From: Myotis daubentonii | Taxonomy: Eukaryota; Chordata; Mammalia; Chiroptera; Vespertilionidae | NCBI RefSeq assembly: GCF_963259705.1 | Contig: NC_081841.1 | Location: 116,879,033-116,943,032 of the forward strand | Length of the DNA stretch: 64,000 nt | Direction: 5' to 3' | In this document: positions 5,896 to 48,592 of the stretch, piece after piece | Layout of the letters: each line of letters starts with the position of its first letter | Numbering within the stretch: the stretch's first letter is position 1 | Made by a program: the position numbers and the translations under genes | Notes under the pieces: model-generated | Databases searched by the model: none | What the model was told of the DNA's origin: nothing | What the model saw: only the letters and a program-made list of their open reading frames with translations

Positions 5896-6250
5896 GTTTA
5901 GAAGCATGTTGTTTAATCTCCACATATTTTTTTCTAGTTTTCTTTCTATAGTTGATTTCTATTTTCAGGCCATTGTGGTCAGAATATATGCTTGATATAA
6001 TTCAATCTTCTTGAATTTATTGAGGCTTGTTTTGTGGCCTAGTATGTGATCTATCCTGGAAAATGTTTCAGGTACATTTGAGAAAAATGTGTAACCTGCA
6101 ATTTTGGGATGAAATGCTCTCTAAATATCTATGAAGTCAAACTGATCTAATGTGGAATTTAAGGCTATTATTTCCTTATTAATTTTCTGTCTGGATGATC
6201 TTCCATTGAGATACATGGAGTAGTTCCAACTATTATTATATTATTGTTAA

Positions 6251-24813: not shown

Positions 24814-25247
24814 AATAATTGCCTACATAGGCAGTTTATTTCTAGACTCTCTATTCTGTTCCATTGATCTATATTTCTGCTTTTATGCCAGGGCCATAAG
24901 TTTTGATTACCATAGTCTTGTAGCATAGTTTCATGTCAGGTAGCATAATACTTCCAACTTTATCCTTCTTTCTCAAATTGCTGTGGTTATTCGGGATCTT
25001 TTGTGGTTTCATATACATTTTTTTTGATTATTTGTTCCAGTTCTGTGAAATATACCATTGGTATCTTGATAGGAATTGTATTGAATTTATAGATTACTTG
25101 AGTGGTATAGACATTTTTATTATGTTAATTCTTCCTATTTATGCTTCCATTTACTTTTATCTTCTTTGATATCTACTTCAGTGTCTTAAAATTTTCTGAG
25201 TACAGGTCTTTTACCTTCTTGGTTAAATTTATTTCTAGACACCTTAT

Positions 25248-27615
25248 CTATATATATATATTTTTAATATATTTTTTATTGATTAAGATATTACATATGT
25301 GTCCTTATCCCTACCTTACCCCCTACCCACACCCCCACTCATGGCCTCACCCCCCCCCCATTGTCCATGTCCATTGGTTAGACCTATATGCTTGCATGTA
25401 AGTCCTTTGGTTGATCTTTCCCCCTTACCCCCACCCTCCCCTATCTTCCCTCCAAGGCCCTACAGTCCAATCAATGCCTCTCCGTCTCTGGATCAGTCCT
25501 TGTTCATCAGTTTATGTTGTTCATTATATTCCACAAATGAGTGAGATCATGTGGTATTTATCCTTCTCTGACTGGTTTATTTCACTTAGCATAATGCTCT
25601 CCAGTTCCATTGATGCTGTGGCAAATGGTAAGAGTTCCTTTTTCTTCTTCCTCTTCTTAAAGAATACCTTTCAGCATTTCATATAATGCTGGCTTGGTGG
25701 TGATGAACTCCTTTAGCTTTTGCTTATCCGTGAAGCTCTTTATCTGACCTTCAATTCTGAATGATAGCTTTGCTGGATAAAGTAATCTTGGTTGTAGGTT
25801 CTTGCTATTCATCACTTTGAATATTTCTTGCCACTCTCTTCTGGCCTGCATGGTTTCTGTTGAGAAATCAGCTGACAGTCGTATGGGTACTCCCTTGTTG
25901 GTAACTGACTGTCTTTCTCTTGCTGCTTTTAAGATTCTCTCTTTGTCTTTTGCTCTTGGCATTTTAATTATGATGTGTCTTGGTGTAGTCCTCTTTGCAT
26001 TCCTTTTGTTTGGGGTTCTCTGTGCTTCCTGGACTTGTAAGTCTATTTCTTTGACCAGGTAGGGGAAGTTTTCTGTCATTATTTCTTCAAATGGGTTTTC
26101 AATATCTTGCCCTCTCTCTTCTTCTGGCACCCCTATAATTCTGATGTTGGTACGCTTGAAGTTGTCCCAGAGGCTCCTTACACTATCTTCATATTTTTGG
26201 ATTCTTTTTGCTTTTTTCTTTTTTGATTGGATATTTTTTGTTTCTTCCTATTTCAAATCTTTGACTTGATTCTTCGGATCCTCTTGTCTTCTGTTGGATC
26301 TCTGTATATTATTCTTTATTTCAGTCAGTGTATGCTTAATTTCTAGTTGGTCTTTTTTCATATCCTCCAGGGTCTCACTAAATTTATTGGTGGTTTCCAT
26401 AAAATTCTTGAAAAACCTTATAACCGTGGTTTTGAACTCTATATCCAGTCGTTTTCTTTCCTCCATTTCTGTCATTTGTGACCTGTTTCTTTGTCTCCAC
26501 ATTTTTCATGCTTCCCTGTGTTGGTAGAGTGGTTTTGTGTGCTAGGTGTCCTATAGGGCCTACTGGGTCAGCCTCCCCAGTTACTTGAGGTGGACACTCT
26601 TGGTGCACCTCCTTGTGGTTTTTGTGCACAGTCTTGTTGTAGTGATGCCTTGATTGTTGTAGGTATCACTGGGAGGAATTGACCTCCAGGCCAGTTGGCT
26701 CTGAGAATCAGCTGTGTCTGCAGTGGGAGAACTTCTGTGCTGAAGACACCCTTCTGGGGCAAGACTTGTTTCAATGGGGCTTTGGTGCTCACTGAGTCTG
26801 CCCCCTGAGTGTGTCCCTTATGGATCTGAGGAGTTGTAATCTGGATGGTCCCCCTCTGACCACTGGGTACACTGGCTCTTGGATCTAAGGAGGTGCTAAT
26901 TTAACCTCTTCTTGAGGTTACCCAGCAGGAGCTAAGTAGAGATCTGCAGATTCCCCTTCCTTTTTGGGGTTTTGGAGGTGCCCAGATGAGGCCCAGCTGT
27001 GAAGCAATGCAAGCTGCTGTGGGGCCTTGGGCCTTCTCTTGGAAGTTCTGGGTCTGTCTGGCCCAGCTGCAATTTGTTAAGTAATTTTCAGGTTGCAAAA
27101 GGCCAGGGCATTCATATGCAAAAGCCTCTGCCGCAGCCTGGGTGGGGCAGGGTCTCAGGGAATCAAAGGGTGGAGCAAGCAGCTATAGTTGATCTTCAGC
27201 CCTGCCCTAAGGGGCTGCACGTCTCAGTGTCCCGGTAATTGCTGCAAGCACCTCTGAGGGAAAGCTGCCCTCAAGTTCCACATTCTGCCTGCTGCCAGAC
27301 AGTCCAGTTTCTCCTTGTATGAGGCCTGGGTCCCCAGAGACTTCCTGGAACTGGAGTTCAGAGCAGTCAGGAGCTTGTGACTCCCTCCTGATTCAAAAAG
27401 GCAGCCGCATCCTCAGGTAACAGCCCTGCACTTTACTTCCGCAGCTCCTCTGAGTCTCAGTGTGCTTTTCTCTTTTCTTCTAGTTGTAGAATTTCCACTC
27501 AGCCTGCCTTCCTGTAGTTCTGGATGATGTCCGTTTTGTCTTTTCATTGTATTTTTGAAGTTGTTGTGGGAGGCAGCTATTTCTGGTGTTTACCTATGCC
27601 GCCATCTTGGTTTCT
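25248..27615 (-). mobile_element. HAL1-like L1 derivative lacking ORF2, full-length, copy 1
   Basis: On the minus strand it starts AGAAACCAAGATGGCGGCAT (27615, typical L1 start with a YY1-like AAGATGGCGG box), then a 5' UTR, ORF1 and immediately the L1 3' UTR, with no ORF2. The ORF1-to-3'UTR junction near 25640-25660 is the same as in copy 2 at about 29290. The flanking duplication CACCTTAT is at 25240-25247 and 27616-27623. ORF1 is broken here by stops or a frameshift around 26130-26250 (open pieces 25657-26130 and 26248-26502). Confidence 0.85.
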
Positions 27616-27942: not shown

Positions 27943-28928
27943 TGTTTCCTACTTTTTCACTGAATTCATTTATTAGGTCTAGTAGTTTTTTGATGGAATC
28001 TTTAGGGTTCTCTATATATAGTATCATGACAGTTTTACTTCTTCCTTTCCAATTTGGATGCCATTTCTTTCTTTATTTTTTTTCTTTTTCTTTTCTCATT
28101 TACTTCTTCTTGTCTAATTGCTGTGGCTATAACTTTCAGTCCTATGTGGAATCAGAGTGGCGAAATGAACATCCCTGTCTTGTTCCTGATCTTAAGGAAA
28201 ATGCTTTTAGTTTTTCCCCACTGACTATGATGTTAGCTGTGGGTGTATCCATATGGTCTTTATTTTTATTTTTTAAAATATTTTAAATAAGTTTTTATTT
28301 TTCAATTACTCTTTATATTCACTGTTATTCTGTATTAGCTTCAGATGTGCAGCAAAATTGTTAGGAAATTATTTACTTTGCAGCATGGTCCCCCACTGCT
28401 TCAAGAAGCCAATTGGCGCCATATATATTTATTTTAATACTAGTGGCCTGGTGCACAGATTTGAGGACATTGAAAGGAAATTAATTAGAAGAAATATTTT
28501 GATATCGCTATTTGCTCTTTCTCTATAAGAGAAGTGTCAGAGATGAAAGAAAATTAGTAAAATGTATATGAAAATAATATATAAACTGATTAATAAATAA
28601 ACAAAAACATGTCATAACAACGAAGACATGATATAAAAGCAACAAAAACATAATATAAAACAACAAAAACATGATATAAAAACAACATTGATAAAAATAA
28701 TGACTGGTAAATGGATTAAACTTATTCTCATATCTCCTTGTATACCACATTAAGAGTAAAAACACTTTCAGAGTGCTTGGCTAATTTCCCTTGTGATGAA
28801 GTATTTACAACTTTAACATCACACACTCTTCGAACTGGAGAGAAAGCAACATATAACTGAACATGTCCAAAAATGTGTTCAGGTCAGAATATTCCTACTC
28901 TGTCTAGAATTTGTCCTTGTGATTTATT

Positions 28929-31122
28929 TATTTTTCTTTTTTTTTAAAATATATTTTTTATTGATTAAGATATTACATATGTGTCCTTGTCCCCACGTTA
29001 CCCTCTACCCCCCCCCCCCCGCTCATGCCCTCACCCCCCCGTTGTCCGTGTCCATTGGTTAGGCCTATATGCTTGCATAAAAGTTCTTTGGTTGATCTTT
29101 CCCCCTTACCCCTACCCTCCCCTACCTTCCCTCCAAGGCCCGACAGTCCAATCAATGCCTCTCCGTCTCTGGATCAGTCCTTGTTCATCAGTTTATGTTG
29201 TTCATTATATTCCACAAATGAGTGAGATCCTGTGGTATTTATCCGCTCTCCAGTTCCATCCATGCTGTGGCAAATGGTAAGAGTTCCTTTTTCTTCTTCC
29301 TCTTCTTAAAGAATACCTTTCAGCATTTCATATAATGCTGGTTTAGTGGTGATGAACTCCTTTAGCTTTTTCTTATCCGTGAAGCTCTTTATCTGACCTT
29401 CAATTCTGAATGATAGCTTTGCTGGATAAAGTAATCTTGGTTGTAGGTTCTTGCTATTCATCACTTTGAATATTTCTTGCCACTCTCTTCTAGCCTGCAT
29501 GGTTTCTGTTGAGAAATCAGCTGACAGTCGTATGGGTACTCCCTTGTAGGTAACTGACTGTCTTTCTCTTGCTGCTTTTAAGATTCTCTCTTTATCTTTT
29601 GCTCTTGGCATTTTAATTATGATGTGTCTTGGTGTGGTCCTCTTTGGATTCCTTTTGTTTGGGGTTCTCTGCGCTTCCTGGACTTGTAAGTCCATTTCTT
29701 TCACCAGGTAGGGGAAGTTTTCTGTCATTATTTCTTCAAAAAGGTTTTCAATATCTTGCTCTCTCTCTCCTTCTGGTACCCCTATAATTCTGATGTTGCT
29801 ACGCTTGAAATTGTCCCAGAGGTTCCTTACACTATCTTCATATTTTTGGAATCTCTTTTCTTTTTTCTTTTTCGGTTGGGTATTTTTTGTTTCTTTGCAT
29901 TTCAAATCTTTGACTTGATTCTTGGGATCCTCTTGTCTGCTGTTGGATCTCTGTAAATTATTCTTTATTTCAGTCAGTGTATGCTTAATTTCTAGTTGGT
30001 CCTTTTTCATGTCCTCCATGGTCTCACTATACTTATTGAGGGATTCATTAAATTTATCGGCGGTTTCCATAAAATTCTTGAAAAACCTTATAAACGTGGC
30101 CTTGAACTCTATATCCAGTCGTTTGCTTTCCTCCATTTCTGCCATTTGTGACCTGTTTCTTTGTCTCCGCATTTTGGCTGCTTCCCTGTGTTGATAGAGT
30201 GGCCCTGCACGCCAGGTGTCCTGTAGGGCCCAGTGGCTCAGCCTCCCCAGTTACCTGAGGTGGACACTCTTGGTGCACTCTTGGTGCCTTGGTTGTTGTA
30301 GGATCACTGGGAGGAATTGACCTCCAGGCCAATTGGCTGTGAGAATCAGCTGTGTCTGAAGTGGGAGTACTTCTGTGCTGAAGACACCCTTTTGGGGCAA
30401 GACTTGCTTCAGTGGGGCTTTGGTGCTCACTGAGTCTGCACCCTGAGTGTGTCCCTTATGGATCTGAGGGGTTGCAATCTGGATGGTCCCCCTCTGACCA
30501 CTGGGTGCAGTGGCTCCTGGATCTAAGGAGGTGCTAATTCAGCCTCTGCCTGAGGCCACACAGCAGGAGCCACCAAGAGGCTCAGCTGTGAAGCAATGCA
30601 AGCCGCTGGGGGGCCTTGGGCATTCTCTTGGAAGTTCCGGGTCTGCCTGGCTCAGCTGCAGTTAGGTAATTATCAGTTTGCAAAGGGCCGGTACATTCAC
30701 ATGCAAAAGCCTCTGCCGCAGCCTGGGTGGGGCGGGGTCTCAGGGAATCAAAGGGCGGAGGAAGCAGCTATGGCTGATTCTCCGCCCAGCCCTAAGGAGT
30801 CCTGCGTCTCAGTGACCGGATAACTACTGCAAGCACCTCTGAGGGAAAGCCGCCCTCAAGTTCGCCCGCTGCCCGACAGTGCAGCTTCTCCCTGTATGAG
30901 TCCTGGGTCCCCAGAGACTTCCCGGAACCGGAGTTCAGAGCAGTCGGGAGCTTGCGATTCAAAAAGACAGCCGCGTCCTCAGGTGCCACCCCCTTTCCGT
31001 GAGCGCGAGCCGCCGTACCTCTGCACTTCACCTCCGCATCTCCTCTGGCTCTCAGTGTGCTTTTCTTTCCTTCTAGTTGTAGAATTTACACTCGGCCAGC
31101 ATTCCTGTTGTTCTGGATGATC
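28929..31122 (-). mobile_element. HAL1-like L1 derivative lacking ORF2, copy 2
   Basis: A 2.2 kb insertion flanked by a perfect 17 bp duplication TGTCCTTGTGATTTATT (28912-28928 and 31123-31139), with the A-tail complement at the left. The structure is a 5' UTR missing the outer ~100 bp seen in copy 1, an intact ORF1, and a 3' UTR. The absence of ORF2 with the same junction as copy 1 shows that both derive from one ORF2-less master. It would have been mobilised by L1 ORF2p in trans. Confidence 0.9.
29306..30172 (-). CDS. L1 ORF1p-like protein of HAL1 element, uninterrupted
   Basis: A 288-residue frame for an L1 ORF1 protein, the RNA-binding chaperone that coats L1 RNA. Residues about 15-100 are charged and heptad-like (coiled-coil trimerisation region, KKDQLEIKHTLTEIKNN). 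A basic linker follows (PKKKKEKRFQKY). Residues about 115-205 match the RRM (RSNIRIIGVPEGEREQDIEN), and the end matches the C-terminal domain (LRPARLLYP-type LQPRLLYPAKLSF, ITTKPALYEMLKGIL). The start is the first Met (30172). The frame is open although the element has no ORF2, which suggests a young insertion or a recently active family. Expression is not shown. Confidence 0.85.
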   Translation of the reverse strand: MRRQRNRSQMAEMEESKRLDIEFKATFIRFFKNFMETADKFNESLNKYSETMEDMKKDQLEIKHTLTEIKNNLQRSNSRQEDPKNQVKDLKCKETKNTQPKKKKEKRFQKYEDSVRNLWDNFKRSNIRIIGVPEGEREQDIENLFEEIMTENFPYLVKEMDLQVQEAQRTPNKRNPKRTTPRHIIIKMPRAKDKERILKAARERQSVTYKGVPIRLSADFSTETMQARREWQEIFKVMNSKNLQPRLLYPAKLSFRIEGQIKSFTDKKKLKEFITTKPALYEMLKGIL

Positions 31123-32664: not shown

Positions 32665-33696
32665 CTAGAGGCCTGGTGCACAAAATTTGTGCACGGAAGG
32701 GGGCTCCCCTCAGCCAAGCCTGCACCCTCTCCAATCCAGGACCCTTCAGGGGATGTCTGACTGCCAGTTTAGGCCCCAGGATCTGGCCTAAACTGGCAGT
32801 TGGACATCCTTCTCACAATCCAGGACCGCTGGCTCCTAACTGCTCACCTGCCTGCTTGCCTGACCACCCCTAACTGGCCTGCCTGCAAGCCTGATCACCC
32901 CTAACTACCCCCCCCCCCCGCTGGCCTGGTCGCTCCAAAAGCCCCTCTCTGCTGGCCTGGTCGCCTCTAACTGCCCCCCTAACAGCCTGGTTGCCCCCAA
33001 CTGTCCCTCTTGCAAGCCTGGTTGCCCCTCACTGCCCCCCTCTGCTGGCCTGGTTGCCCCTAACTGCCCCCCTGCAGGCCTGGTCACCCCTCACTGCCCC
33101 CCACTGCTCGCATGGTCACCCCTCACTGCCCCCCGCCAGTCTGGTTGCCCCTAACTGCACCCCTCTGCTGGCATGGTCACCCCTCACTGGCCCCCATGCA
33201 AGCCTGGTTGTCCCTCATGGCCCCCCTCTGCTGGCCTGGTCACTCCCAACTGCCCCCCCCCACCCGCCGGCCTGGTTGCCCCTCACTGCCCCCCACACTG
33301 GCCTGGTCACCCCTAACTGCCCTCCCCTACTGACCTGGTCACCCCCAACTGCCCCCCCTCACCGGTCTGGTTGCCCCTTACTGCCCCCCCTGCTGGCCTG
33401 GTTGCCCCACGCAGCCTGGTGTTCAGTCGTTTGGTTGTCCCTCAGTAACCCCCCTGCCAGCCTGGTTACCCCATGCAGCCTGCTGCTCAGTCATTTGGTT
33501 GTCGCTCACTAACCCCCCTGCCAGCCTTGTTGCCCTACTCAGCCTATTCGGTCATCTGTTCAGTTGTTTCAAATATGACAACCCCTGGCTCTTAACATAC
33601 ATAGATTGCCAATGCACGTCATATGTACTGGCTAGTCAGTCCATCAGACGGTCAGATGGATGGGCTGTCAGTCACTTAGCCTTTTATATATATAGA
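32665..33696 (-). mobile_element. HeliBat Helitron with ~30 bp minisatellite, member 3 of array
   Basis: It runs from CTAGAGGCCTGGTGCACAAA to CTTTTATATATATAGA. Between about 32890 and 33540 it contains some twenty imperfect copies of a unit like 'ctggcctggtcacccctcac' plus a C-run. Long open frames here reflect the repeat. Confidence 0.88.
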
Positions 33697-34161
33697 CTAG
33701 AGGTGCAAAACAATTTCTGCACTCGGGGGGGGGGGGTGGTTCCTCAGCCTGGCCTATGCCCTCTCACAGTCTGGGACCCCTCGGGGGATGACCATCTGCT
33801 GGCTGAGGCCTGCTCCCCAGGGGATTGGGCTTAAGACAGCAATCAGACATTCCTCTGGCAGCCCGGCAGCCCTTGGGGGATGTCCACTTGCCAGTGGGGA
33901 GCAGACCTAAGCTGCAGTTGGACATCATTAGCACTGCTGAGGAGGCAGGAGAGGCTCCCCCCACCACTGCTGTAATGGCAGCCGTCAGCCTGGCTTGTGG
34001 CTGAGCAGAGCTCCTCCATGTGGGAGCTCACTGACCACCAGAGGGCAGCTCCTGCATTGAGTGTCTGCCCCCTGGTGGTCAGTGTGTGACATAGTGACCA
34101 GTCATTCCCAGTCTTTCTGCTGTTAGGGTCAGTTTGCATATTTCCCTTTTACTATATAGGA
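33697..34161 (-). mobile_element. HeliBat Helitron, member 2 of array
   Basis: It runs from CTAGAGGTGCAAAACAATTT to CCCTTTTACTATATAGGA. It is homologous in reverse to 20593-21057, including the 'gaccaccagggggca' block. It joins member 1 with no spacer. Confidence 0.88.
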
Positions 34162-34825
34162 TAGAGGCCTGGTGCATGGGTGGGGGCTAGCTGGTTTGCC
34201 CTGAAGGATGTCCTGGATTAGGGTGGGGGTCCTGCTTGGGTGCCTGACCAGCCTGGGTGAGGGGCTGATGACTGTTTTCAGGCTGCCCGCACCCCCTTCA
34301 GGTTGGGGGTCCCCACTGGGGTGCCTGGCCAGCCTGGTTGAGGGGCTGATGGCTGTTTTAAGGCTGCCCGCACCCCCTTCAGGTTGGGGGTCCCCACTGT
34401 GGTGCCTGGCCAGCCTGGATGAGGAACTGAGGGCTGTTTTCAGGCAGGCCAAGCCTGCAACTGAAGCTCCCAGTCTCTTCTTTTTTTCTTTTTCTTTTTT
34501 TATTCTGGGATTTATTTACCTTCTGTAATTGAAACTTTCTTGCGGCTCCAGCTCCAAGGCCAACTGGCTGAAAGCAGGTATCTGGGATTTGTTTAGCTTC
34601 TATAATTGCAACATTGTTGCATCCGGAGCTCAGAGCTAGGCTGTGGCAGCCGGGGAACCTTCGCTTCCTCCATTGCCGGGGCAACCAAGCCTCATGTTCA
34701 CTTCAGCTGCGTGGCTGCCGGCCGCCATCTTTGTTGGAAGTTAATTTGCATATCCTGATGATTAGCTAATGGGAAGCGTAGCGGAGGTATGGTTAATTAC
34801 CATGTTTGTCTATTATTAGATAGGA
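34162..34825 (-). mobile_element. HeliBat Helitron, member 1 of array
   Basis: It starts (5' TC) at 34825, complement of GTTTGTCTATTATTAGATAGGA, and ends at 34162 with the shortened terminus TAGAGGCC. It carries 83 bp type internal repeats around 34215-34440. It is homologous in reverse to 19849-20592. The right flank is T34826. Confidence 0.88.
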
Positions 34826-34888
34826 TTATTGGCTATCTTCCCTACCCTGTAATTTACATCTCTGTGGCTATATTGTAATTACCAATTT

Positions 34889-35063
34889 GGGTGGTCAGTG
34901 GCAACTTAGGTACAAGCTTAAACAAAAGAGGCTTCTTGCCTAACAGTGACATAAATATTTGGGTTATAGAAAGGCATGCCTGTGCAGTGTAGACAGTAAG
35001 ATTGCTGTGTCCTTGCTCAGATTGGCCTTGAACATCTGGTATACTCTGGATAGGGCCCCCACA
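34889..35063 (-). mobile_element. 3' LTR of old endogenous retrovirus, partial
   Basis: It matches about 175 bp of the 5' LTR at the right end (to 42065), including GGTCAGTGGCAACTTAGGTA and the terminal 'gggcccccaca'. Read on the minus strand the LTR starts TGTGGGGGCCC. The U5 side is missing on the left. Confidence 0.75.
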
Positions 35064-36430
35064 TTCCATGCCTTACACTGGTGATTTCTATGGGATCCTC
35101 TGGCCTATCTTCCAGCACCTTGAGCACAGAGTTCACAACAGCAACACAAACTACAACATGTTATAACCAGTACTCCAGCCCCAATAGCAACACTCACAAA
35201 TGCCCAGTGCCTTACTCCTGAGAGTCTATCCCACCAACCTCGGAGGGGGTTATGGGACATGGCTTGTATGGTTCGCACTTCCCTGTTTATCTCTTCCAGG
35301 GCACTGGTTACATTCCCTTGATTGTCAGGTATATATGTACAATATTCTACATGTATGATGACATAGGTGCCTCCTGTGCAGCAGTTAACAAATCTAGTGC
35401 TATTCTATTCTGCAGTGTCACTTTGCACATCTACGTGGTTTCATCTATCATTAGGGTAAGGGCTTGCTGGGTCTGACCCAAGTCTTTAGCTATATTCTCA
35501 GCTAAGGCTGTTACTTATAACTCTACCTTAATTGCTCCTCCTGCAGGAAGGAATACAGCTAAGGAGTAAAACCACCAGGAAGTCAATTTAACACAATGCC
35601 ACCAGTGGTAAACTGAGTCCCAGTTATGGGGAATCTCTTCTAAAGTCTTAAGAATTTTCCCAGGGATATAGGGCCTACCCCAGGTACATCGACCCGACCA
35701 ATTCACAGGGAGGTAAGGACAGCCATACCTTCCACACACCCATAAGTATCCTGAAATCATCATATCTACAGGTTTTGTGCCGCTATAATGCTTTCCATTC
35801 TGTCGCTTCTGAACCTCAACATTAGTAGTTATGTTACAACACAAGTCTGGAGGCAGCCAGCCAACGACTCAATTCTTACTGAGTCACTGCTGCTCTACAC
35901 ACGTGTCTGCAGGGTCTCTTAATTCTACTTGTTCTCCTAGCAACCACCCCCAACCATTCCACACTGTATAACCAATAAAGGGGCGAGTATTGAGGTGGTC
36001 CCACCAGATCAGAGTCTTTATGGCTTGGTACACAGAATCCCAGGAGATGTTGTTGAAGTCTTGGTCAGTTAACCATGTCCAATTGGCAGTGGTGGCCAGA
36101 TGGATGTGCCATGGAAATCCACCGGCCACTCCTGGGGGAATTTCTGTGCACACCCAACAATGGGAGACATTATGCATCGAGCATAGGTGTGTGCCCACAA
36201 CACTACGCTGTTAGCCAAGCTTGCCCTGATCAAAGAGACAAAAGAGAAACTGAAACCATCATAGAGAGATCACAGCCTTCTGGAAAGATGCAAGCAACTG
36301 TGTCTCTTCTAGACAGCACTGTGACTGGAATCAGAGGACAACCTGGCCAGTGATACCAAGTGGGATCTCCCTCTTCATAGGGGCCCGGTTTCACAAGGGA
36401 AGCTATGGGAAATCTGAGCACTGGTCAGAG
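35064..36430 (-). pseudogene. Endogenous retrovirus env-like remnant
   Basis: Between the integrase and the 3' LTR the minus strand has several open pieces in env position: 36230-36421, 35884-36198 (surface-type, Trp/Cys-rich) and 35515-35844, which ends with a hydrophobic AVFLPAGGA stretch as expected at a fusion-peptide-like start. A hydrophobic segment plus Cys cluster near 35110-35250 could be the membrane anchor. Stops and frame changes interrupt it throughout, so no envelope protein can be made. Assignment is by position and composition, with no database match. Confidence 0.6.
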
Positions 36431-37394
36431 GGGAATAGTGTAAGTCCCCTTTAACAATGTATCCCTCCTATGCTTTCTGGCTTGGACTTGCACTGTTACT
36501 GGCCAGGGCTGGATCAAAGGGTGCAACTGGAACTTGTAGTCGTACCCAATTCCCCAGGGCCCTTCCCCAGTAACAGTCCATGGCCAGGTCCACACTGCCT
36601 CATTCCCCTCTGCCAAGTGGGCAGGTGTGTAGGCAGCAGCAAAGTTTCCAGATGGGTGTACCTTGGGGCGCAATAGTTCATTTGTTGTTTTCACCTGCAT
36701 ATGCAGCGTCTGAGGATACCTCCGCATCACTAACTCAAAGGGAGAAGCACTGGATGTTCATTCAATCATCTAGCCCAACTTTTTAGGCTAGATGGGTCCA
36801 CCCCTAGGCAGAGCTTGTCTTTTACCAGGCCATTATACTGTTCAATCACCCCAGCAGCTTGGGGATTATATGGAACGTGAAACTGCCAAGCTATATCCTG
36901 GGCCTTGACCCAGCTCTGTACCTTCTTCCCTGTGAAATGGGTTCCATTATCACTTACTATGCTAAGGGGTCACTCATAGGTGGCCCCCAAGTGTTCCAAA
37001 CCATGGACAACTGTCCATTGGGTGGCCTCTCTTGCAGGGTGAGCAAAAAGGAGGCAGGTGGCAGTCAGGGCATAGTTAAAACCCTAGTCCAGAGGGAGAG
37101 GCCCAATGAAATCCACCTGCCAATGTTGGAGAGGGGTCCCTCCTCTGAGGACATGGCCCTTCTTCCCCGGAGGCCATATCGATGGGGCAGGGGGAAGGTG
37201 TCTGAGCACAGCAGGGACAACCTCGTACTGCAGCGAGGGGTTCCCCTGTGGATAAGGCCAGGCTCCACCTCTCAGCCACCTGCATCATTGTCTGTGGTCC
37301 CACCTGCCCTAGTTTCCAATGGAGCCACCAAGTCCAATCTTCAGGGAAAGGTACTACCTCCCAAACCCTTGCCAAGGCATCTGCCTCATTGTTC
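36431..37394 (-). pseudogene. Retroviral integrase and end of RNase H, old ERV
   Basis: Minus-strand pieces show the RNase H end (PGNNEADALAR at about 37394-37360), a zinc-binding region (WWLHWKLGQVGPQTMMQV then CPCCAQ, about 37330-37200), and the catalytic-core end (PYNPQAAGVIEQYNGLVKDK, about 36880-36820). Further pol or env-leader text follows to 36425. Several stops are present. It is separated from the rest of pol by LTR A at 37401-38212. Confidence 0.8.
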
Positions 37395-37400
37395 CCAGGG

Positions 37401-38212
37401 TGCCGGGGTCCAGCCCCAGCGGGTCCAGGGGTCCCCAAAGGTGTGGATGGAGTCGGCGAAGAAGGAATGACACGGAGATAGCGTTCAGTTGATCAGCAGC
37501 CTAGCCAGGATCTCCAGCCAGGATCTCCAGCCAAGTTCTGGTCTGGATCTCCAGAGAGGTTCTGCTTAGGATCTCCAGCCAGGTTCTGTAGCCATGTTCC
37601 CTCGCTAGGTTCTCCAGCCAGGTTCTGTCCAGGTTCTCCAGCCAGGTTCAGTCACCAGGTTCTAGTCAGGTTCTCTTGCCAATTTCTGTAGTCAGGTTCA
37701 GTCCAGGATCTTTTGCCATGTTCTCTCGCTAGGTTCTGTCTCTAGGTTCTGAGGCCAGTTTCTGTCCAGGACCTTTTGCCATGTTCTCTCCAGCGAAGTT
37801 CTTCTGTCTCTAGAGAACGTTCTGTGTAGGTTCTGTGCCTAGGTTCTGAGTGTAGGTTCTGTGTTCTGAGTTCTGTCTTGTTACATCTGTATTTATACCA
37901 GTTGATTCCAATCCTATCAATCTCTATTCCAAATGTTAGGGCGTTTCTTATCTCCATTCCAGGGAGTAAAGATTATGTAGCTTAAGCATGATTGTTCGTA
38001 GTTAAAGTGATTAATTACCCGCCTGGCACTTAGTTGAGGGGTTTTATTCCCTCCCTAACTTCAGGGAAAAATCCCTACCTGGGGATTCAACCTTTCTCGG
38101 AGAGGTGACCTTGGTTAAAACACAGCGCCAAGAAGGTGAGCAAACATATTAAGAACCATATGCCATATATGCCAGGTCCCTTGAAACAGCAAGGATGGAC
38201 CGGCTCCCGGCA
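37401..38212 (-). mobile_element. Younger solo LTR 'A' inserted in the old ERV pol
   Basis: The 812 bp element has TG...CA ends on both strands (TGCCGGGGTCC on plus at 37401, TGCCGGGAGCCGG on minus at 38212). The 6 bp target-site duplication CCAGGG is at 37395-37400 and 38213-38218. The 6 bp size suits a betaretrovirus-like (class II) integrase. The left half contains an array of 'aggttctgtc/ctccagcc' short repeats and is about 90 bp longer than in LTRs B and C. It splits the RNase H coding region of the old ERV. Confidence 0.9.
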
Positions 38213-38218
38213 CCAGGG

Positions 38219-40500
38219 GCTAACAATGGTCGATGGCCACTCAAATGATATATTGTTGCCTTTTTGGAAGTCCCTACTTTCCATATATCCTTTCACATTT
38301 CCTGTCCCCACACGGGACGGTGTCCTACCAGCCACTGTTGCTTGTGCGATTGTGGCAACCACAAAGTCAAGCCTTTAAAGATAGCCCAGCTGCCTGTTAC
38401 AATGATCAAAGGGCCAGGCTCCTTTGTCAACACCATCCAGACTGCTCTTGGTTCAGTCCATTGGCTACTTTGCCCAGTACCAGAATCAAATGACAGTTTG
38501 TCTGTATTTAAATGGACAGCCACTGCTGTACATGTAGCAGTGCTCCCCCTACTTGATCCGTCTGTGTACCACATGGTCTCTGGGAGAGATAGCATAGCTT
38601 CTCGGAATGGACTAGGGCAGGGGTGGGCAAACTTTTTGACTCGAGGGCCACAATGGGTTCTTAAACTGGACCGGAGGGCCGAAACAAAAGCATGGATGGA
38701 GTGTTTGTGTGAACTAATATAAATTCAAAGTAAACATCATTACATAAAAGGGTACGGTCTTTTTTTTATTTTAGTTTTATTCATTTCAAACGGGCCGGGC
38801 TGTAGTTTGCCCACGGCTGGACTAGGGAGTACCTCCTCTATAGGAGTTTCATCCCTTGACAGGATCTCATATGTCACAGGACCCAACAGGGTTTGCAATT
38901 TCTGTGACAGAGGCCTGGTACTCACCACTGCCCTCTGTTCCAAATAGGCCTCCATTTTGCTAAAGTTGGGGTTTGTGCCACTCTCAACTTGGGTGTGGTC
39001 ACCCAAGATCTAAGCCACTGGCTATAGGATAGGCAGTCTTCACAAGCCGAGCACCTTACTTTGTGTTGTGATTGCCTCACAGGCCTACAGGGCTACATAA
39101 ATGGCAGCCAACTGCATCTCACTGAGGATGTACTGACACTTGGCCCCTTTGCACAGCTGAGACCAGAACCCAATAGGCACCCTTCTCTGCCCATGCTATT
39201 GCCATAGATCCCAACCAAACCCTGATGGAGTAACAGTTATGTCCAACTGGAATGGTTGTGTTAGATCTACAACCTGAAAGCTTTGGGTTTCTTGGTAATG
39301 AGAAAGGCCTCCTCAACTTCTGGAGTCTAGTGCCATGTCACCCCTGTTCCAGAATAACAGGTACAAGGGCCACAAAAGTTGTGCCAGATGGGGATGAACA
39401 CTCACCAATACCCTAAAAGACAACATAGGCCTGTAACTTTCACTGTTGTAGGTCGGGGAAAAGCCTGCACTTTGTCAATAACTGCCTCAGGTATCACCTT
39501 GGTCTTACTAGACCAGACAACTCCCAAGAATTTGACAGACAAGCCAGGTTCCTGGACCTTGGCAGTCATTAACCACCCATACCCATGAGTTCAATGCCTG
39601 CCATAGGCTACTGGAAGCTGTATTCAAATCTGCAAAAGAATCAGAAGTTAGCATGATATCATCAATATAATGGAACATTGTCACTGTAGGAGGCTTGCCC
39701 TAGGTGGCTAAATCTTGTGCCACCAGACCATGACAGATGGTAGGGCTGTGTAAATATCCTTGAGGGAGAAAACAAAAGTCCACTGTCAACCTTCCCACAT
39801 AAAAGCAAACTGTTCCTAACTCCAGGCCTATATCTATGGAAAAGAAAGCATTAGCCAAATCCACCACATAGTGGAATCACCCTAACAACATAGTTAGGTG
39901 ATTGATCAGATCTGTTATAGCCGGAATTGTGGAATGTAATGGGTAGTCACTTTATTCAGTTCTCTGTAATCCACAGTCATTCACAAGGTGCCGTCAGGCT
40001 ACTTCACTGGCCATACTGGACAATGTAGGGGCTGTGCGTGGGCCAGATGATCTTTGCCTTCTCCAGCTGCAATATCTTCTGATTTCCTCTTGACCTCCTG
40101 GGAGGAGGTACTGCCACACCCACACCACCTGGCAGGGATTAGGCAGTGTCACCACCATGTGATGTAGGTGCCCCCTTGTGGTAGGCTTTACCACACACAC
40201 CCATAGGTGGAATTCACCCTGGGTCATTGCAATTGTTAACCCTTTTAGCACGTCCACTCCCAAGATGTATTCTGGTATGGGAGATATATACACAGTATAG
40301 GCCTTTCAGCGGAAGGCGGCCAATACTCAGTGTCAAGGTTGCCTGCCATACATGAACAGTTCTGCCTCCATATCTGTCTGTATATCTGTCAGGGTTACAA
40401 TACAGTAAACTGTAGTCTGCAACCATATCAACCAGTGCCAACATACATTGCATGTTGCAGGGATGGGGGTGGGGAGGGGAGAACCAATATATTGTGAGTT
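38219..40500 (-). pseudogene. Old ERV pro-pol: protease, RT, first part of RNase H
   Basis: Read leftward: a protease relic (ALVDMVADYS at about 40413-40445, where Thr-Gly of the active site is lost, and ILGVDVLKGL near 40250), RT with the active-site box YIDD in FHYIDDIM (39654-39675), then RNase H with MWYTDGSSRG (about 38550-38575) and the Glu in QWTEPRAVW. Stops occur throughout and a hAT (38618-38819) interrupts the connection region. The YIDDIM form recalls class III (ERV-L-like) polymerases, a tentative call from memory. Confidence 0.8.
38618..38819 (+). mobile_element. Non-autonomous hAT element in ERV pol
   Basis: It has the same family termini as 5682-5895 (CAGGGGTGGGCAAACT ... GCCCACGGCTG) and a perfect 8 bp duplication GACTAGGG (38610-38617 and 38820-38827). 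Confidence 0.93.
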
Positions 40501-41460
40501 CAACATACAGCCGCCAGTCCTCCGGGTCCCCTCTCCTGACTGGGTTCCTTGGCCTGTTCCTCAGTCTAGGACATTAAGCTCCTCCTCCTCAGGGGAATTT
40601 AAATAGTCCTAGAGGCATACTGGTCTAGGGCAGTGGTCGGCAAACTGCGGCTCGCGAGCCACATGCGGCTCTTTGGTCCCTTGAATGTGGCTCTTCCACA
40701 AAATACCACGTGCGGGCGCGCATGTACAGTGCGATTGAAACTTCATGGCCCATGCGCAGAAGTCGGTATTTTGTGGAAGAGCCACACTCAAGGGGCCAAA
40801 GAGCCGCATGTGGCTCGCGAGCAGCAGTTTGCGACCACTGGTGGAACTGCCTTTCTTCGGTAGCTTCTGGAAATGCTTTCCTACCAGTAATTGCCTCCAC
40901 AAGGCCAGCAGCACATCATTAGGCTGCTGACCTATCTTCTCTTTCCTAACCCCTGTAGCCAGCAGCTCCACCCACATTTGCGTGTGGGAGATTTTCACAG
41001 GTTCTGTCCCCACCACTTTTCTGGATCCCGAGCCCGTGGTCTTAGGCACTGCCTTATGTACCGTAGGCTTTTGCACAGTGATGGGTTTCGCTATTCCCTT
41101 TTATCATCACTTGGCTTTCACATCCCCCAAGCTGGCCATGGCTGTAATTATCTCATGTATACAGTGGTTTACGAAAAGGGTCAAAATAGCTGCCAGCCAC
41201 CCAAAAGCTGCTGGAAGGGCTGCAGCGAGAATCAAGTCTTTCCTATGCATCAAAAAATGCTCATCATCAGGACCACAAGTATTCAAGTTAAACATGGCTT
41301 GTTTCGTGCCCATTTCCTGTATCACTTGCACTAAATCTACATTCATAGTCCATTTACTCATGGTTTCTGGCAATTCTCCGGCATCCTGCCAAATGCTTCG
41401 AGATGCCACCATTAACCAATCCATCAGGGAGTGATCTCCCTGTCTGACTCCCAAACAGTG
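40501..41460 (-). pseudogene. Old ERV gag remnant
   Basis: The minus strand holds a 115-codon frame (41107-41454, with RQGDHSLMDWLMVA and GPDDEHF) and a further frame to about 40609 that runs through the hAT-like MITE. Position between the 5' LTR and protease supports gag. No zinc knuckle (CX2CX4HX4C) is visible. Confidence 0.6.
40631..40840. mobile_element. Palindromic hAT-like MITE in gag
   Basis: The 210 bp element starts CAGTGGTCGGCAAACTGCGG and ends GTTTGCGACCACTG. The two halves (40641-40710 and 40765-40830) are inverted repeats of one another, including CTCGCGAGCCACATGCGGCT, so single strands would fold into a long hairpin. No clean 8 bp duplication was found. Confidence 0.8.
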
Positions 41461-41749
41461 ACTGATCTGCAGTCACTGCCGCAAAGAGGGATGGGTCATT
41501 ATTGAGGCTAACTTCTCCATCTTGGCTGGAGATAGCTCTCTCAGTGTTGCAGTTTCAAGGCATTAGGAGCAACCAGTCTACCTGCCTGACAACCTTCTAC
41601 TGGTCTTTGGGGATTGTGCCCATCAAGGGCAACAAAGCCTTCTCTAATGCCTTAACTTACTCCCAATCTTCCAAGGCATCAGGACCACTGCTACCAGATA
41701 CCATAAACCAGTCAGAGGCCACATGTCCTCCAATGGGATAGATGGGGTA

Positions 41750-42065
41750 CTTACCCCAGAATCCTGCCCACTACTACACCAAGTTCCTCAGCCAGGGACT
41801 TGACCCTTCTGGGGGCAGGAAATTGGAAGAACACTCAGGTGCAAGCAGACAAGTGGAACATGCTTTATTACAACAAAACAGCCAACAACTGGCTGGTCAG
41901 TGGCAACTTAGGTACAAGCTCAAACAAAAGAGGCTTTTTTCCAAATAGTAACATCAGTATTTGGGTTATAGAAAGGCACGCCTATGCAGTGTATACAGTA
42001 AGATTGCTGTGTCCTTGCTCAGATTGGTCTTGAACATCCAGCGTACTTTGGACAGGGCCCCCACA
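41750..42065 (-). mobile_element. 5' LTR of old endogenous retrovirus
   Basis: It shares about 175 bp with the 3' LTR (34889-35063) and starts TGTGGGGGCCC on the minus strand at 42065. The left limit is uncertain; the complement of an AATAAA signal is near 41863. L1 sequence begins at 42066, so the ERV inserted next to or into that L1. Confidence 0.7.
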
Positions 42066-42448
42066 CCAGGTTATGTCAGTTTTCAGTTTTCAATCATTAT
42101 TTATTCAAATAGGTTTTCAATCCCTTTCTCTTTCTTTTCTCCTTCTGGTTCCCCTGTGATGCAAATGTTGTTATTCTTTATCTTGTCCTAGACATCCCCT
42201 AAACTACTCTCATTTTGTAAAATTCTTTTTTCTGTTCTGATTGGGAGTTTTCTGTTACCTTTTATTCTGAATCGCCGATTCAATCCTCTGCTTCATACAA
42301 CCTACTGCTTATTCCTTCTGGTGTATTCTTAATACGCTTACTATCTCTTTTTTTTAAGTTCCCAATGAGCTCATTCATTCTTTCTCTAAGTTCCTTGAGC
42401 ATCCTTATAACCATTATTTTGGATTCTGTATCTGGTATATTCCATTTT
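42066..42448 (-). mobile_element. L1 ORF1 fragment (unit 1 copy)
   Basis: Antisense L1 ORF1 text (e.g. 42280-42486 strand minus, MVIRMLKELRERMNELI). The same text recurs at 47025-47407, and the rest of this L1 continues at 48131 beyond LTR C. Confidence 0.8.
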
Positions 42449-43171
42449 TGCTGGGGTCCAACCCCAGCAGGTCCAGGGGTTCCCAAATGTGTAGACGGAG
42501 TCGGCGAAGAAGGAATGACACGGAGACAGTGTTCAGTTGATCAGCAGCCTAGCCAGGATCTCTAGCCAAGTTCTGGTCTGGATCTCCAGAGAAGTTCTGC
42601 TTCAGATCTCCAGCCAGGTTCAGTCACCAGGTTCTAGTCAGGTTCTCTTGCCATGTTCTATAGTCAGGTTCAGTCCAGGATCTATTGCCATGTTCTCTCC
42701 AGCAAAGTTCTTCTGTCTCCAGGCTCCGTGTAGGTTCTGTCTTCTGAATTCTGTGTTCTGAGTTCTGTCTCACTTGGTCCTGTCTTCCAAGCCCTGTGTT
42801 CTCAGTTCTGTGTTCTAAATTCTGTCTATTGTTGTCTTGTTACATCTGTATTTATACCAGTTGATTCCAATCCTATCAATCTCTATTCCAAATGTTAGGG
42901 CGTTTCTTATCTCCATTCCAGGGAGTAAAGATTATGTAGCTTAAGCATGATTGTTCGTAGTTAAAGTGATTAATTACCCGCCTGGCACTTAGTTGAGGGG
43001 TTTTATTCCCTCCCTAACTTCAGGGAAAAATCCCTACCTGGGGATTCAACCTTTCTCGGAGAGGTGACCTTGGTTAAAACACAGCGCCAAGAAGGTGAGC
43101 AAACATATTAAGAACCATATGCCATATATGCCAGGTCCCTTGAAACAGCAAGGATGGACCGGCTCCCGGCA
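42449..43171 (-). mobile_element. Hybrid LTR 'B' at the duplication junction
   Basis: The 723 bp LTR has TG...CA ends. Its left flank is CATTTT (as LTR C) but its right flank is CCAGGG (as LTR A), so it has no matching duplication of its own. Positions 42449-42832 follow LTR C at every difference seen (for example TGCTGGGG versus TGCCGGGG in A). Positions 42867-43171 follow LTR A at all of about 12 sites where A and C differ. The switch lies in the 34 bp shared stretch 42833-42866. Confidence 0.95.
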
Positions 43172-43177
43172 CCAGGG

Positions 43178-45459
43178 GCTAACAATGGTCGATGGCCACT
43201 CAAATGATATATTGTTGCCTTTTTGGAAGTCCCTACTTTCCATATATCCTTTCACATTTCCTGTCCCCACACGGGACGGTGTCCTACCAGCCACTGTTGC
43301 TTGTGCGATTGTGGCAACCACAAAGTCAAGCCTTTAAAGATAGCCCAGCTGCCTGTTACAATGATCAAAGGGCCAGGCTCCTTTGTCAACACCATCCAGA
43401 CTGCTCTTGGTTCAGTCCATTGGCTACTTTGCCCAGTACCAGAATCAAATGACAGTTTGTCTGTATTTAAATGGACAGCCACTGCTGTACATGTAGCAGT
43501 GCTCCCCCTACTTGATCCGTCTGTGTACCACATGGTCTCTGGGAGAGATAGCATAGCTTCTCGGAATGGACTAGGGCAGGGGTGGGCAAACTTTTTGACT
43601 CGAGGGCCACAATGGGTTCTTAAACTGGACCGGAGGGCCGAAACAAAAGCATGGATGGAGTGTTTGTGTGAACTAATATAAATTCAAAGTAAACATCATT
43701 ACATAAAAGGGTACGGTCTTTTTTTTATTTTAGTTTTATTCATTTCAAACGGGCCGGGCTGTAGTTTGCCCACGGCTGGACTAGGGAGTACCTCCTCTAT
43801 AGGAGTTTCATCCCTTGACAGGATCTCATATGTCACAGGACCCAACAGGGTTTGCAATTTCTGTGACAGAGGCCTGGTACTCACCACTGCCCTCTGTTCC
43901 AAATAGGCCTCCATTTTGCTAAAGTTGGGGTTTGTGCCACTCTCAACTTGGGTGTGGTCACCCAAGATCTAAGCCACTGGCTATAGGATAGGCAGTCTTC
44001 ACAAGCCGAGCACCTTACTTTGTGTTGTGATTGCCTCACAGGCCTACAGGGCTACATAAATGGCAGCCAACTGCATCTCACTGAGGATGTACTGACACTT
44101 GGCCCCTTTGCACAGCTGAGACCAGAACCCAATAGGCACCCTTCTCTGCCCATGCTATTGCCATAGATCCCAACCAAACCCTGATGGAGTAACAGTTATG
44201 TCCAACTGGAATGGTTGTGTTAGATCTACAACCTGAAAGCTTTGGGTTTCTTGGTAATGAGAAAGGCCTCCTCAACTTCTGGAGTCTAGTGCCATGTCAC
44301 CCCTGTTCCAGAATAACAGGTACAAGGGCCACAAAAGTTGTGCCAGATGGGGATGAACACTCACCAATACCCTAAAAGACAACATAGGCCTGTAACTTTC
44401 ACTGTTGTAGGTCGGGGAAAAGCCTGCACTTTGTCAATAACTGCCTCAGGTATCACCTTGGTCTTACTAGACCAGACAACTCCCAAGAATTTGACAGACA
44501 AGCCAGGTTCCTGGACCTTGGCAGTCATTAACCACCCATACCCATGAGTTCAATGCCTGCCATAGGCTACTGGAAGCTGTATTCAAATCTGCAAAAGAAT
44601 CAGAAGTTAGCATGATATCATCAATATAATGGAACATTGTCACTGTAGGAGGCTTGCCCTAGGTGGCTAAATCTTGTGCCACCAGACCATGACAGATGGT
44701 AGGGCTGTGTAAATATCCTTGAGGGAGAAAACAAAAGTCCACTGTCAACCTTCCCACATAAAAGCAAACTGTTCCTAACTCCAGGCCTATATCTATGGAA
44801 AAGAAAGCATTAGCCAAATCCACCACATAGTGGAATCACCCTAACAACATAGTTAGGTGATTGATCAGATCTGTTATAGCCGGAATTGTGGAATGTAATG
44901 GGTAGTCACTTTATTCAGTTCTCTGTAATCCACAGTCATTCACAAGGTGCCGTCAGGCTACTTCACTGGCCATACTGGACAATGTAGGGGCTGTGCGTGG
45001 GCCAGATGATCTTTGCCTTCTCCAGCTGCAATATCTTCTGATTTCCTCTTGACCTCCTGGGAGGAGGTACTGCCACACCCACACCACCTGGCAGGGATTA
45101 GGCAGTGTCACCACCATGTGATGTAGGTGCCCCCTTGTGGTAGGCTTTACCACACACACCCATAGGTGGAATTCACCCTGGGTCATTGCAATTGTTAACC
45201 CTTTTAGCACGTCCACTCCCAAGATGTATTCTGGTATGGGAGATATATACACAGTATAGGCCTTTCAGCGGAAGGCGGCCAATACTCAGTGTCAAGGTTG
45301 CCTGCCATACATGAACAGTTCTGCCTCCATATCTGTCTGTATATCTGTCAGGGTTACAATACAGTAAACTGTAGTCTGCAACCATATCAACCAGTGCCAA
45401 CATACATTGCATGTTGCAGGGATGGGGGTGGGGAGGGGAGAACCAATATATTGTGAGTT
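43178..45459 (-). pseudogene. Old ERV pro-pol, duplicate copy
   Basis: Copy of 38219-40500 shifted by 4,959 bp with the same breaks; the YIDD box is at 44613-44634 and WYTDGSS near 43515. It is cut off at LTR B, so the last part of RNase H and the integrase are absent from this copy. Confidence 0.85.
43577..43778 (+). mobile_element. Non-autonomous hAT element, duplicate copy
   Basis: Copy of 38618-38819 with the same GACTAGGG flanks; present by segmental duplication, not by a new insertion. Confidence 0.93.
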
Positions 45460-46419
45460 CAACATACAGCCGCCAGTCCTCCGGGTCCCCTCTCCTGACT
45501 GGGTTCCTTGGCCTGTTCCTCAGTCTAGGACATTAAGCTCCTCCTCCTCAGGGGAATTTAAATAGTCCTAGAGGCATACTGGTCTAGGGCAGTGGTCGGC
45601 AAACTGCGGCTCGCGAGCCACATGCGGCTCTTTGGTCCCTTGAATGTGGCTCTTCCACAAAATACCACGTGCGGGCGCGCATGTACAGTGCGATTGAAAC
45701 TTCATGGCCCATGCGCAGAAGTCGGTATTTTGTGGAAGAGCCACACTCAAGGGGCCAAAGAGCCGCATGTGGCTCGCGAGCAGCAGTTTGCGACCACTGG
45801 TGGAACTGCCTTTCTTCGGTAGCTTCTGGAAATGCTTTCCTACCAGTAATTGCCTCCACAAGGCCAGCAGCACATCATTAGGCTGCTGACCTATCTTCTC
45901 TTTCCTAACCCCTGTAGCCAGCAGCTCCACCCACATTTGCGTGTGGGAGATTTTCACAGGTTCTGTCCCCACCACTTTTCTGGATCCCGAGCCCGTGGTC
46001 TTAGGCACTGCCTTATGTACCGTAGGCTTTTGCACAGTGATGGGTTTCGCTATTCCCTTTTATCATCACTTGGCTTTCACATCCCCCAAGCTGGCCATGG
46101 CTGTAATTATCTCATGTATACAGTGGTTTACGAAAAGGGTCAAAATAGCTGCCAGCCACCCAAAAGCTGCTGGAAGGGCTGCAGCGAGAATCAAGTCTTT
46201 CCTATGCATCAAAAAATGCTCATCATCAGGACCACAAGTATTCAAGTTAAACATGGCTTGTTTCGTGCCCATTTCCTGTATCACTTGCACTAAATCTACA
46301 TTCATAGTCCATTTACTCATGGTTTCTGGCAATTCTCCGGCATCCTGCCAAATGCTTCGAGATGCCACCATTAACCAATCCATCAGGGAGTGATCTCCCT
46401 GTCTGACTCCCAAACAGTG
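45460..46419 (-). pseudogene. Old ERV gag remnant, duplicate copy
   Basis: Copy of 40501-41460 with identical open pieces and the same MITE. Confidence 0.6.
45590..45799. mobile_element. Palindromic hAT-like MITE, duplicate copy
   Basis: Copy of 40631-40840 created by the tandem duplication. Confidence 0.8.
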
Positions 46420-46708
46420 ACTGATCTGCAGTCACTGCCGCAAAGAGGGATGGGTCATTATTGAGGCTAACTTCTCCATCTTGGCTGGAGATAGCTCTCT
46501 CAGTGTTGCAGTTTCAAGGCATTAGGAGCAACCAGTCTACCTGCCTGACAACCTTCTACTGGTCTTTGGGGATTGTGCCCATCAAGGGCAACAAAGCCTT
46601 CTCTAATGCCTTAACTTACTCCCAATCTTCCAAGGCATCAGGACCACTGCTACCAGATACCATAAACCAGTCAGAGGCCACATGTCCTCCAATGGGATAG
46701 ATGGGGTA

Positions 46709-47024
46709 CTTACCCCAGAATCCTGCCCACTACTACACCAAGTTCCTCAGCCAGGGACTTGACCCTTCTGGGGGCAGGAAATTGGAAGAACACTCAGGTG
46801 CAAGCAGACAAGTGGAACATGCTTTATTACAACAAAACAGCCAACAACTGGCTGGTCAGTGGCAACTTAGGTACAAGCTCAAACAAAAGAGGCTTTTTTC
46901 CAAATAGTAACATCAGTATTTGGGTTATAGAAAGGCACGCCTATGCAGTGTATACAGTAAGATTGCTGTGTCCTTGCTCAGATTGGTCTTGAACATCCAG
47001 CGTACTTTGGACAGGGCCCCCACA
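46709..47024 (-). mobile_element. 5' LTR of old ERV, duplicate copy
   Basis: Copy of 41750-42065, followed at 47025-47407 by the duplicated L1 ORF1 piece. Confidence 0.7.
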
Positions 47025-47407
47025 CCAGGTTATGTCAGTTTTCAGTTTTCAATCATTATTTATTCAAATAGGTTTTCAATCCCTTTCTCTTTCTTTTCTC
47101 CTTCTGGTTCCCCTGTGATGCAAATGTTGTTATTCTTTATCTTGTCCTAGACATCCCCTAAACTACTCTCATTTTGTAAAATTCTTTTTTCTGTTCTGAT
47201 TGGGAGTTTTCTGTTACCTTTTATTCTGAATCGCCGATTCAATCCTCTGCTTCATACAACCTACTGCTTATTCCTTCTGGTGTATTCTTAATACGCTTAC
47301 TATCTCTTTTTTTTAAGTTCCCAATGAGCTCATTCATTCTTTCTCTAAGTTCCTTGAGCATCCTTATAACCATTATTTTGGATTCTGTATCTGGTATATT
47401 CCATTTT

Positions 47408-48130
47408 TGCTGGGGTCCAACCCCAGCAGGTCCAGGGGTTCCCAAATGTGTAGACGGAGTCGGCGAAGAAGGAATGACACGGAGACAGTGTTCAGTTGAT
47501 CAGCAGCCTAGCCAGGATCTCTAGCCAAGTTCTGGTCTGGATCTCCAGAGAAGTTCTGCTTCAGATCTCCAGCCAGGTTCAGTCACCAGGTTCTAGTCAG
47601 GTTCTCTTGCCATGTTCTATAGTCAGGTTCAGTCCAGGATCTATTGCCATGTTCTCTCCAGCAAAGTTCTTCTGTCTCCAGGCTCCGTGTAGGTTCTGTC
47701 TTCTGAATTCTGTGTTCTGAGTTCTGTCTCACTTGGTCCTGTCTTCCAAGCCCTGTGTTCTCAGTTCTGTGTTCTAAATTCTGTCTATTGTTGTCTTGTT
47801 ACATCTGTATTTATACCAGTTGATTTTAATCCTGTCAATTTCTATTACAAAGGTTAGGGCGTTTCTTATCTCCATTCCAGGGAGAAAAGATTATGTAGTT
47901 TAAGCATGATTGTTCGTAGTTAAAGGGATTAATTACCCACCTGGCACTTAGTTGAGGGGTTTTATTCCCTCCCTAACTTCAGGGGAAAATCCCTACCTGG
48001 GGATTCAACCTTTCTCGGAGAGGTGACCTTGGTTAAAACACAGCGCCAAGAAGGTGAGCAAACATATTAAGAACCGTATGCCATATATGCCAGGTCCCTT
48101 GAAACAGCAAGGATGGACCGGCTCCCGGCA
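47408..48130 (-). mobile_element. Younger solo LTR 'C' inserted in L1
   Basis: 723 bp, TG...CA ends, with a 6 bp target-site duplication CATTTT (47402-47407 and 48131-48136); L1 sequence reads through when it is removed. It differs from A/B in the right part at about 12 of 305 positions, about 4%. Confidence 0.93.
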
Positions 48131-48592
48131 CATTTTATTTAGTTGTTTTTTTGGGGGAATTTCTCTTGTTCTTTAATTTGAGGCATTTTTGTCTCCTAAT
48201 TTTGGCTGCCTCTCTGTAGTTGTTTCTGTGTATTAGGTAAATCTTCTATGTCCCCAGCCTTGGTATAGTTTTTTATAGTAGGTATTTTATGGGGAGCCTG
48301 CTGTGGGGTTAAAACCCCAAGCTTCTCAGGAGTAAACCTTTGCAGCTAAGATATTCCTCCAGATTCTCAGCTGCTGCATGTGGGTGCAGGGCCAGCCCTT
48401 TTTGCATCTCCACCCTTCCTACCAATCAAAATGTGGCTTCTTTTATAAATCCTTGGTGATAAAAGTACAACTCAGCTCGTCTTCATTTGACTATTCAGGT
48501 TGATTAGTCTATATTTTAGTTATAATTCCAGATTGGTTCTGGGAGGAGATGAGTGTAACTTCAACATACTCTGCTGCCATCTTGGATTCTCC
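48131..48592 (-). mobile_element. 5' end of the L1 interrupted by LTR C
   Basis: Antisense continuation of the ORF1 N-terminal part and 5' UTR, ending with CTGCCATCTTGGATTCTC, the complement of an L1 start with a YY1-like box. Confidence 0.75.

Follow-up and report, generated by a model that had tools for sequence, protein, structure and literature searches.

Recombination between endogenous retroviral copies is known from people, where non-allelic homologous recombination (NAHR) mediated by human endogenous retroviruses (HERVs) was surveyed by Campbell et al. (2014; PMC4195946). The locus considered here lies in a window of 64,000 nucleotides from the bat Myotis daubentonii (NC_081841.1, positions 116,879,033 to 116,943,032; "the window" is this whole stretch) and holds three solo long terminal repeats (LTRs) of one family, A, B and C. 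It is very probably a tandem duplication that arose by unequal recombination between A and C and left B as a C/A hybrid. The two systems are alike in that exchange occurs between same-orientation retroviral copies with short uninterrupted identity and is located by differences between the copies, to windows of 8-162 bp in the HERV exchanges and to 34 bp here. They differ in that the human events are large and the survey used provirus pairs aligned over at least 2 kb, with LTR-only alignments excluded, whereas the bat locus has a unit of 5 kb and parental solo LTRs of only 0.7-0.8 kb.

Insertions of endogenous retroviruses or their LTRs have also been proposed to promote unequal recombination and copy-number change at primate amylase (PMC12363942) and in mouse KRAB zinc-finger clusters (PMC11952569). 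The units there carry host genes, whereas no host gene was identified in the bat unit when 10 of the 44 open reading frames listed for 33.0-50.5 kb were scanned with Pfam, and thus nothing points to a consequence for the animal. Among the papers listed in a literature search, judged by titles and abstract openings, none dealt with this locus or with hybrid solo LTRs of bats. The process is known and the locus is new, a clean recent example of unequal LTR recombination.

The three LTRs, their flanks or target-site duplications (TSDs) and the repeated DNA have the following positions in the window:

37395-37400, left TSD copy of LTR A, CCAGGG, read from the sequence
37401-38212, minus strand, solo LTR A, 812 bp, parental; CCAGGG on both flanks, TG...CA ends, TATA-like GTATAAATA
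38213-38218, right TSD copy of LTR A, CCAGGG, read from the sequence
38213-42448, inter-LTR DNA of unit 1, 4,236 bp, identical to 43172-47407
42443-42448, left flank of LTR B, CATTTT, the same as the TSD of C
42449-43171, minus strand, solo LTR B, 723 bp, recombinant, its left part from C and its right part from A
42833-42866, exchange interval of 34 bp without difference among the three LTRs, where the stretches shared by B with C and by B with A overlap
43172-43177, right flank of LTR B, CCAGGG, the same as the TSD of A
43172-47407, inter-LTR DNA of unit 2, 4,236 bp, identical to unit 1
47402-47407, left TSD copy of LTR C, CATTTT
47408-48130, minus strand, solo LTR C, 723 bp, parental; CATTTT on both flanks
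48131-48136, right TSD copy of LTR C, CATTTT

In the inferred parental arrangement, LTRs A and C lie on the same strand with 4,236 bp between them; the minus-strand orientation of A is based on the TATA-like motif, read by eye on that strand. Each has its own pair of TSDs, which rules out that A and C are the two LTRs of a single provirus. The probability that a 6-bp agreement of this kind arises by chance, calculated from base composition, is about 2.6e-4 for A and likewise for C, and chance is excluded as the source of the agreements. The 6-bp TSD and the TG...CA ends are class II-like (ERVK-like) signs in the family. A TSD of 6 bp is typical of class II LTR elements, though not unique to them.

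The first 418 bp of LTR B (through 42866) match C without a difference, and the last 339 bp (from 42833) match A in the same way. To the right of the exchange all 12 positions at which A and C differ show the A base in B. To the left, all 86 substitution columns and 99 gap columns follow C, counts that are soft because the alignment there crosses a length-variable repeat. There is a single switch, with no extra bases and no base foreign to both A and C. B is thus a single-switch hybrid of the outer LTRs, with its parts in the order predicted for a duplication by NAHR between LTRs.

The repeated DNA is equally exact. Positions 37874-42866 are identical to 42833-47825, which gives 4,993 bp at an offset of 4,959 with zero mismatches, 68 CpG sites included; the second-longest exact repeat in the window is 120 bp. 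Identity at this offset ends inside the outer LTRs or at their ends, and similarity is lost beyond them. An earlier note on this DNA had described the same flank pattern (CCAGGG/CCAGGG for A, CATTTT/CCAGGG for B, CATTTT/CATTTT for C), a crossover within 42833-42866, two units that look identical and LTRs about 4.2 kb apart. Its flanks are exact to the base, its coordinates and spacing agree with the measured values, its crossover limits follow from the ends of the two identical stretches, and the identity of the units extends to the whole 4,993 bp. It had also remarked that all three states are preserved in one locus, which holds in that both parental LTRs, the hybrid, the TSDs and the 34-bp interval are found together.

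Controls were drawn from the window's own assembly (2.13 Gb in 121 contigs, the contig of the window being more than 209 Mb). A family probe of 472 bases from the hybrid has 3,063 candidate matches in this assembly; 40 of them were scored and 30 fetched, so that the sample consists of the closest family members and was not taken at random. The 30 loci comprise B, C, 16 other solo LTRs and 12 loci from eight proviral insertions. Counting only ends with TG and CA, and with host DNA on both sides, perfect 6-bp TSDs were found in all 17 solo LTRs other than B (C and the 16 others). B, with flanks that differ at five of six positions, was the sole solo LTR examined with mismatched TSDs. Matching outer TSDs were also present in six of the eight proviral insertions, the far end of the other two (L026 and L036) lying outside the fetched DNA. 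One locus, L030, was considered as a further case of mixed flanks (CCCGAG/ATTTTA) and rejected, as the wider region is one insertion with ATTTTA at both ends and a partial extra LTR copy. A mixed flank pair is thus exceptional among the sampled loci. An exact 30-base pattern from the LTR had no matches in IMG/VR.

A second control concerns the insertion of A, which lies in an older, decayed provirus. The first 597 bases of the unit region were used as probe; among 461 candidates 40 were scored, and only two full-length matches at 100% were found, both in this window. The remaining matches were partial at 79-85% (7 of 40) or confined at 96-99% to a miniature inverted-repeat transposable element (MITE; 31 of 40), and a one-unit version was not found elsewhere among the 40. 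Of the seven partial places, six (L003-L008) were fetched; they are paralogs of the older provirus. In four of them (L003, L004, L007 and L008) the site of A is present without an LTR and aligned on both sides, with a 10-base gap beside the site in L007; L005 and L006 are weak cases, with 27 and only 9 aligned bases left of the site. The uninterrupted paralogs have a single copy of the target site, which reads CCAGGG in L003, L006 and L008 and departs from it by one or two bases in L004, L005 and L007. For C, the outer right flank (500 bp) has a full match at one of 41 listed places and otherwise only partial relatives, and no match across an empty site was found in the loci compared. The TSDs, together with the family control and the empty site of A, uphold the parental roles that had been assigned to A and C.

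Unequal recombination between the LTRs is well supported, short of proof. It would have started from two solo LTRs of the same family and orientation, 4,236 bp apart, A inside the older provirus and C in neighbouring DNA. Misaligned pairing in the germ line, with C of one chromatid or homologue opposite A of the other, would have been followed by an unequal crossover within the 34 identical bases. One product would gain an extra copy of the DNA between the LTRs, the two copies being separated by a C/A hybrid LTR; in the reciprocal product this DNA would be deleted and a single A/C hybrid LTR would remain.

Several observations weigh against this reading. The exchange lies at the edge of good homology between A and C: to its right is a well-matched block of 339 bp with 12 differences, and to its left the LTRs diverge in a length-variable repeat. 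The longest exact run shared by A and C is 90 bp and lies elsewhere than the exchange interval. Exact identity is also below the 300-500 bp of uninterrupted identity that PMC4195946 gives as the human estimate, although the HERV exchanges of that study themselves fell in windows of 8-162 bp. Furthermore, when family LTRs were typed, with the 12 A/C sites used for the part right of the exchange and the best match for the left part, mixed types were seen in ordinary insertions with matching TSDs. L012 (LTR 1237-1970) is C-like on the left (94.2%) and mostly A-like on the right (8 of 12 sites), and L014 (LTR 1167-1960) is A-like on the left (93.1% over 349 bp) and C-like on the right (11 of 12). 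This typing shows the family to be a mosaic in which mixed LTRs arise by other routes too, perhaps by recombination during reverse transcription, and LTR type alone therefore gives no direction among A, B and C.

Not all relatives are mixed. The left LTR of L011 is C-like on both sides (95.2% on the left, 11 of 12 sites on the right) and L018 is A-like on both (94.3% over 350 bp on the left, 10 of 12 on the right), while most other typed LTRs are intermediate. Among the nearest relatives, L011 is closest to C on both sides; L018 comes first for A in the right part and ranks third by score in the left part. Such polarity from the nearest relatives was dropped as evidence since the typing shows mixed types. 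The direction rests instead on the TSDs and the duplicated unit, because the two flanks that an insertion produces match, and B alone has flanks that do not. B stands out by these flanks and by its exact match to each neighbouring LTR. Because L012 and L014 also join a C-like to an A-like half, the idea of B as a member of a natural subfamily is not empty, but it is ruled out by the exact match to C and A and by flanks from two sites, and it is further opposed by the absence of mixed flanks from the 17 other solo LTRs among the fetched loci.

A replication-based template switch, through break-induced replication or fork stalling, would yield the same final structure as a crossover. A nascent strand that had reached the 34 shared bases in C would have jumped back to the same bases in A and copied the unit anew. 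The junction has only these 34 bp of perfect identity and is at the edge of the homologous block, as such a switch might have it. However, the switch is homologous, in register and single, with no extra or foreign bases in B, and a homology-driven exchange is simpler, which makes template switching improbable. The earlier note had held that the hybrid LTR proves NAHR. A duplication with a hybrid LTR is supported by the TSDs and the exact unit; the claim of proof goes too far because template switching in the same 34 bp gives the same sequence. A human-type hotspot motif (CCNCCNTNNCCNC) is absent between 37.0 and 48.5 kb, which carries little weight because bat motifs probably differ.

Zero differences in 4,993 bases correspond to a 95% upper bound of about 111,000 years at 2.7e-9 substitutions per site per year, provided that there has been no gene conversion or assembly smoothing and that this vespertilionid rate applies. 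The rate is that used for vespertilionid bats in PMC4643047. The identity of the units upholds the very recent date proposed before. An alternative that concerns the date, and overlaps with unequal recombination as the origin, is an old duplication kept identical by gene conversion or by repeated gain and loss of units. Identity cannot tell recent origin from recent homogenisation, but this history requires homogenisation without trace over the entire 4,993 bp, and it is unlikely beside the simpler recent origin. An assembly artefact, in which the assembler walked the unit twice since A and C share sequence, would agree with zero differences in 4,993 bp and with units known from the assembly alone, not from raw reads, but it is very improbable, as a graph error would more likely arise in the longest shared stretch of 90 bp than in one of 34 bp, the window contains no N in an assembly of 121 contigs, and the scored unit-probe matches include no one-unit version.

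With a recent duplication by unequal LTR recombination, the locus may still be changing. We regard it tentatively, with somewhat less than an even chance, as a living copy-number polymorphism, with the deletion product and chromosomes of one, two or more units all present in the population, because identical direct repeats of 4,993 bp would be a far better substrate for recombination than a pair of LTRs of 0.7-0.8 kb. In that case, LTRs of the family would repeatedly give rise to arrays of this kind. The earlier note had also suggested polymorphism, which is a prediction and as such goes beyond the sequence. The locus records unequal LTR recombination with unusual clarity. If this mechanism holds, a tandem array can start from solo LTRs of 0.7-0.8 kb that share a well-matched block of only 339 bp, and the junction offers a ready marker for measuring copy-number change.

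Tandem arrays were also found among proviruses of the same family, in which about 0.75-1.0 kb separates the LTRs in the four regions fetched. L039 (G000:C4:50388500-50397500) and L041 (G000:C1:174440500-174448500) are LTR-interior-LTR-interior-LTR arrays with a single TSD around the whole, AAGAAT and CCTTTA respectively. The halves of L039 are 97.1% alike over 2,299 columns and its outer LTRs 90.8% over 692. In L041 the outer LTRs are identical over 827 bp and the blocks pairing the middle LTR with an outer one are 90.4-90.6% alike, which suggests that the tandem element moved as one unit. These arrays share the LTR-unit-LTR-unit-LTR layout with the locus in the window, and LTR-LTR exchange is a natural reading of them; they differ in that their repeated unit is the element's own interior, whereas the A-B-C unit is bounded by insertions that occurred separately. 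Exchange between LTRs may have happened more than once in the family. The two arrays come from four hand-picked proviral regions and give no rate. Another provirus of the family, L040 (G000:C23:122246500-122254500, reverse complement), has an extra partial LTR at its right end, in which 252 bp (3493-3744) match positions 1696-1947 of the left LTR at 100%; the full LTR beside this partial copy is about 92% like the left one.

The duplicated unit is composed of the part of the old provirus to the right of A, a MITE and some flanking DNA. Much of the duplicated DNA is therefore old retroviral sequence, a point missing from the earlier note. Two elements are involved:

34888-42065 (outer limits approximate), minus strand, older decayed provirus, host of the LTR A insertion
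38618-38819, hAT-like MITE in unit 1 with 8-bp TSD GACTAGGG; copy in unit 2 at 43577-43778

The LTR-like pair of the older provirus (34888-35063 and 41890-42065) is 89.2% alike over 176 bp, and related copies were matched at six other places in the genome. Just beyond A, at 38293-38724, it encodes an RNase H (PF00075, E 5e-7), the only one of ten open frames of this provirus above the Pfam cut-off; Pfam matches of two other frames fell below it and were taken as chance. A tRNA search found none. Within the old-provirus part of the unit, 210 bp at 40631-40840 (copy at 45590-45799) are 81% like their own reverse complement. The ends and TSD of the MITE were read by eye, and we take it to be hAT-like. 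It is 99% alike over 150 bp to another copy at 5682-5896, and MITEs of this presumed type have many near-identical copies in the genome.

Other repeats are found elsewhere in the window. Two direct copies of a 2.2-2.3-kb repeat (25244-27528 and 28924-31121) are 84% alike overall with exact stretches of up to 120 bp, and each contains a match to mir-9229 (26744-26818 and 30382-30456), a term that no paper listed in a literature search for it contained. Short interspersed elements which we take to be of Ves type are present as well; with the hAT-like MITEs and the two mir-9229 matches, they point to a vesper bat as the source. An inverted pair of about 1.1-1.2 kb (19847-21067 and 33689-34827) is 85-89% alike, and each member carries a minisatellite of 80-81-bp units.

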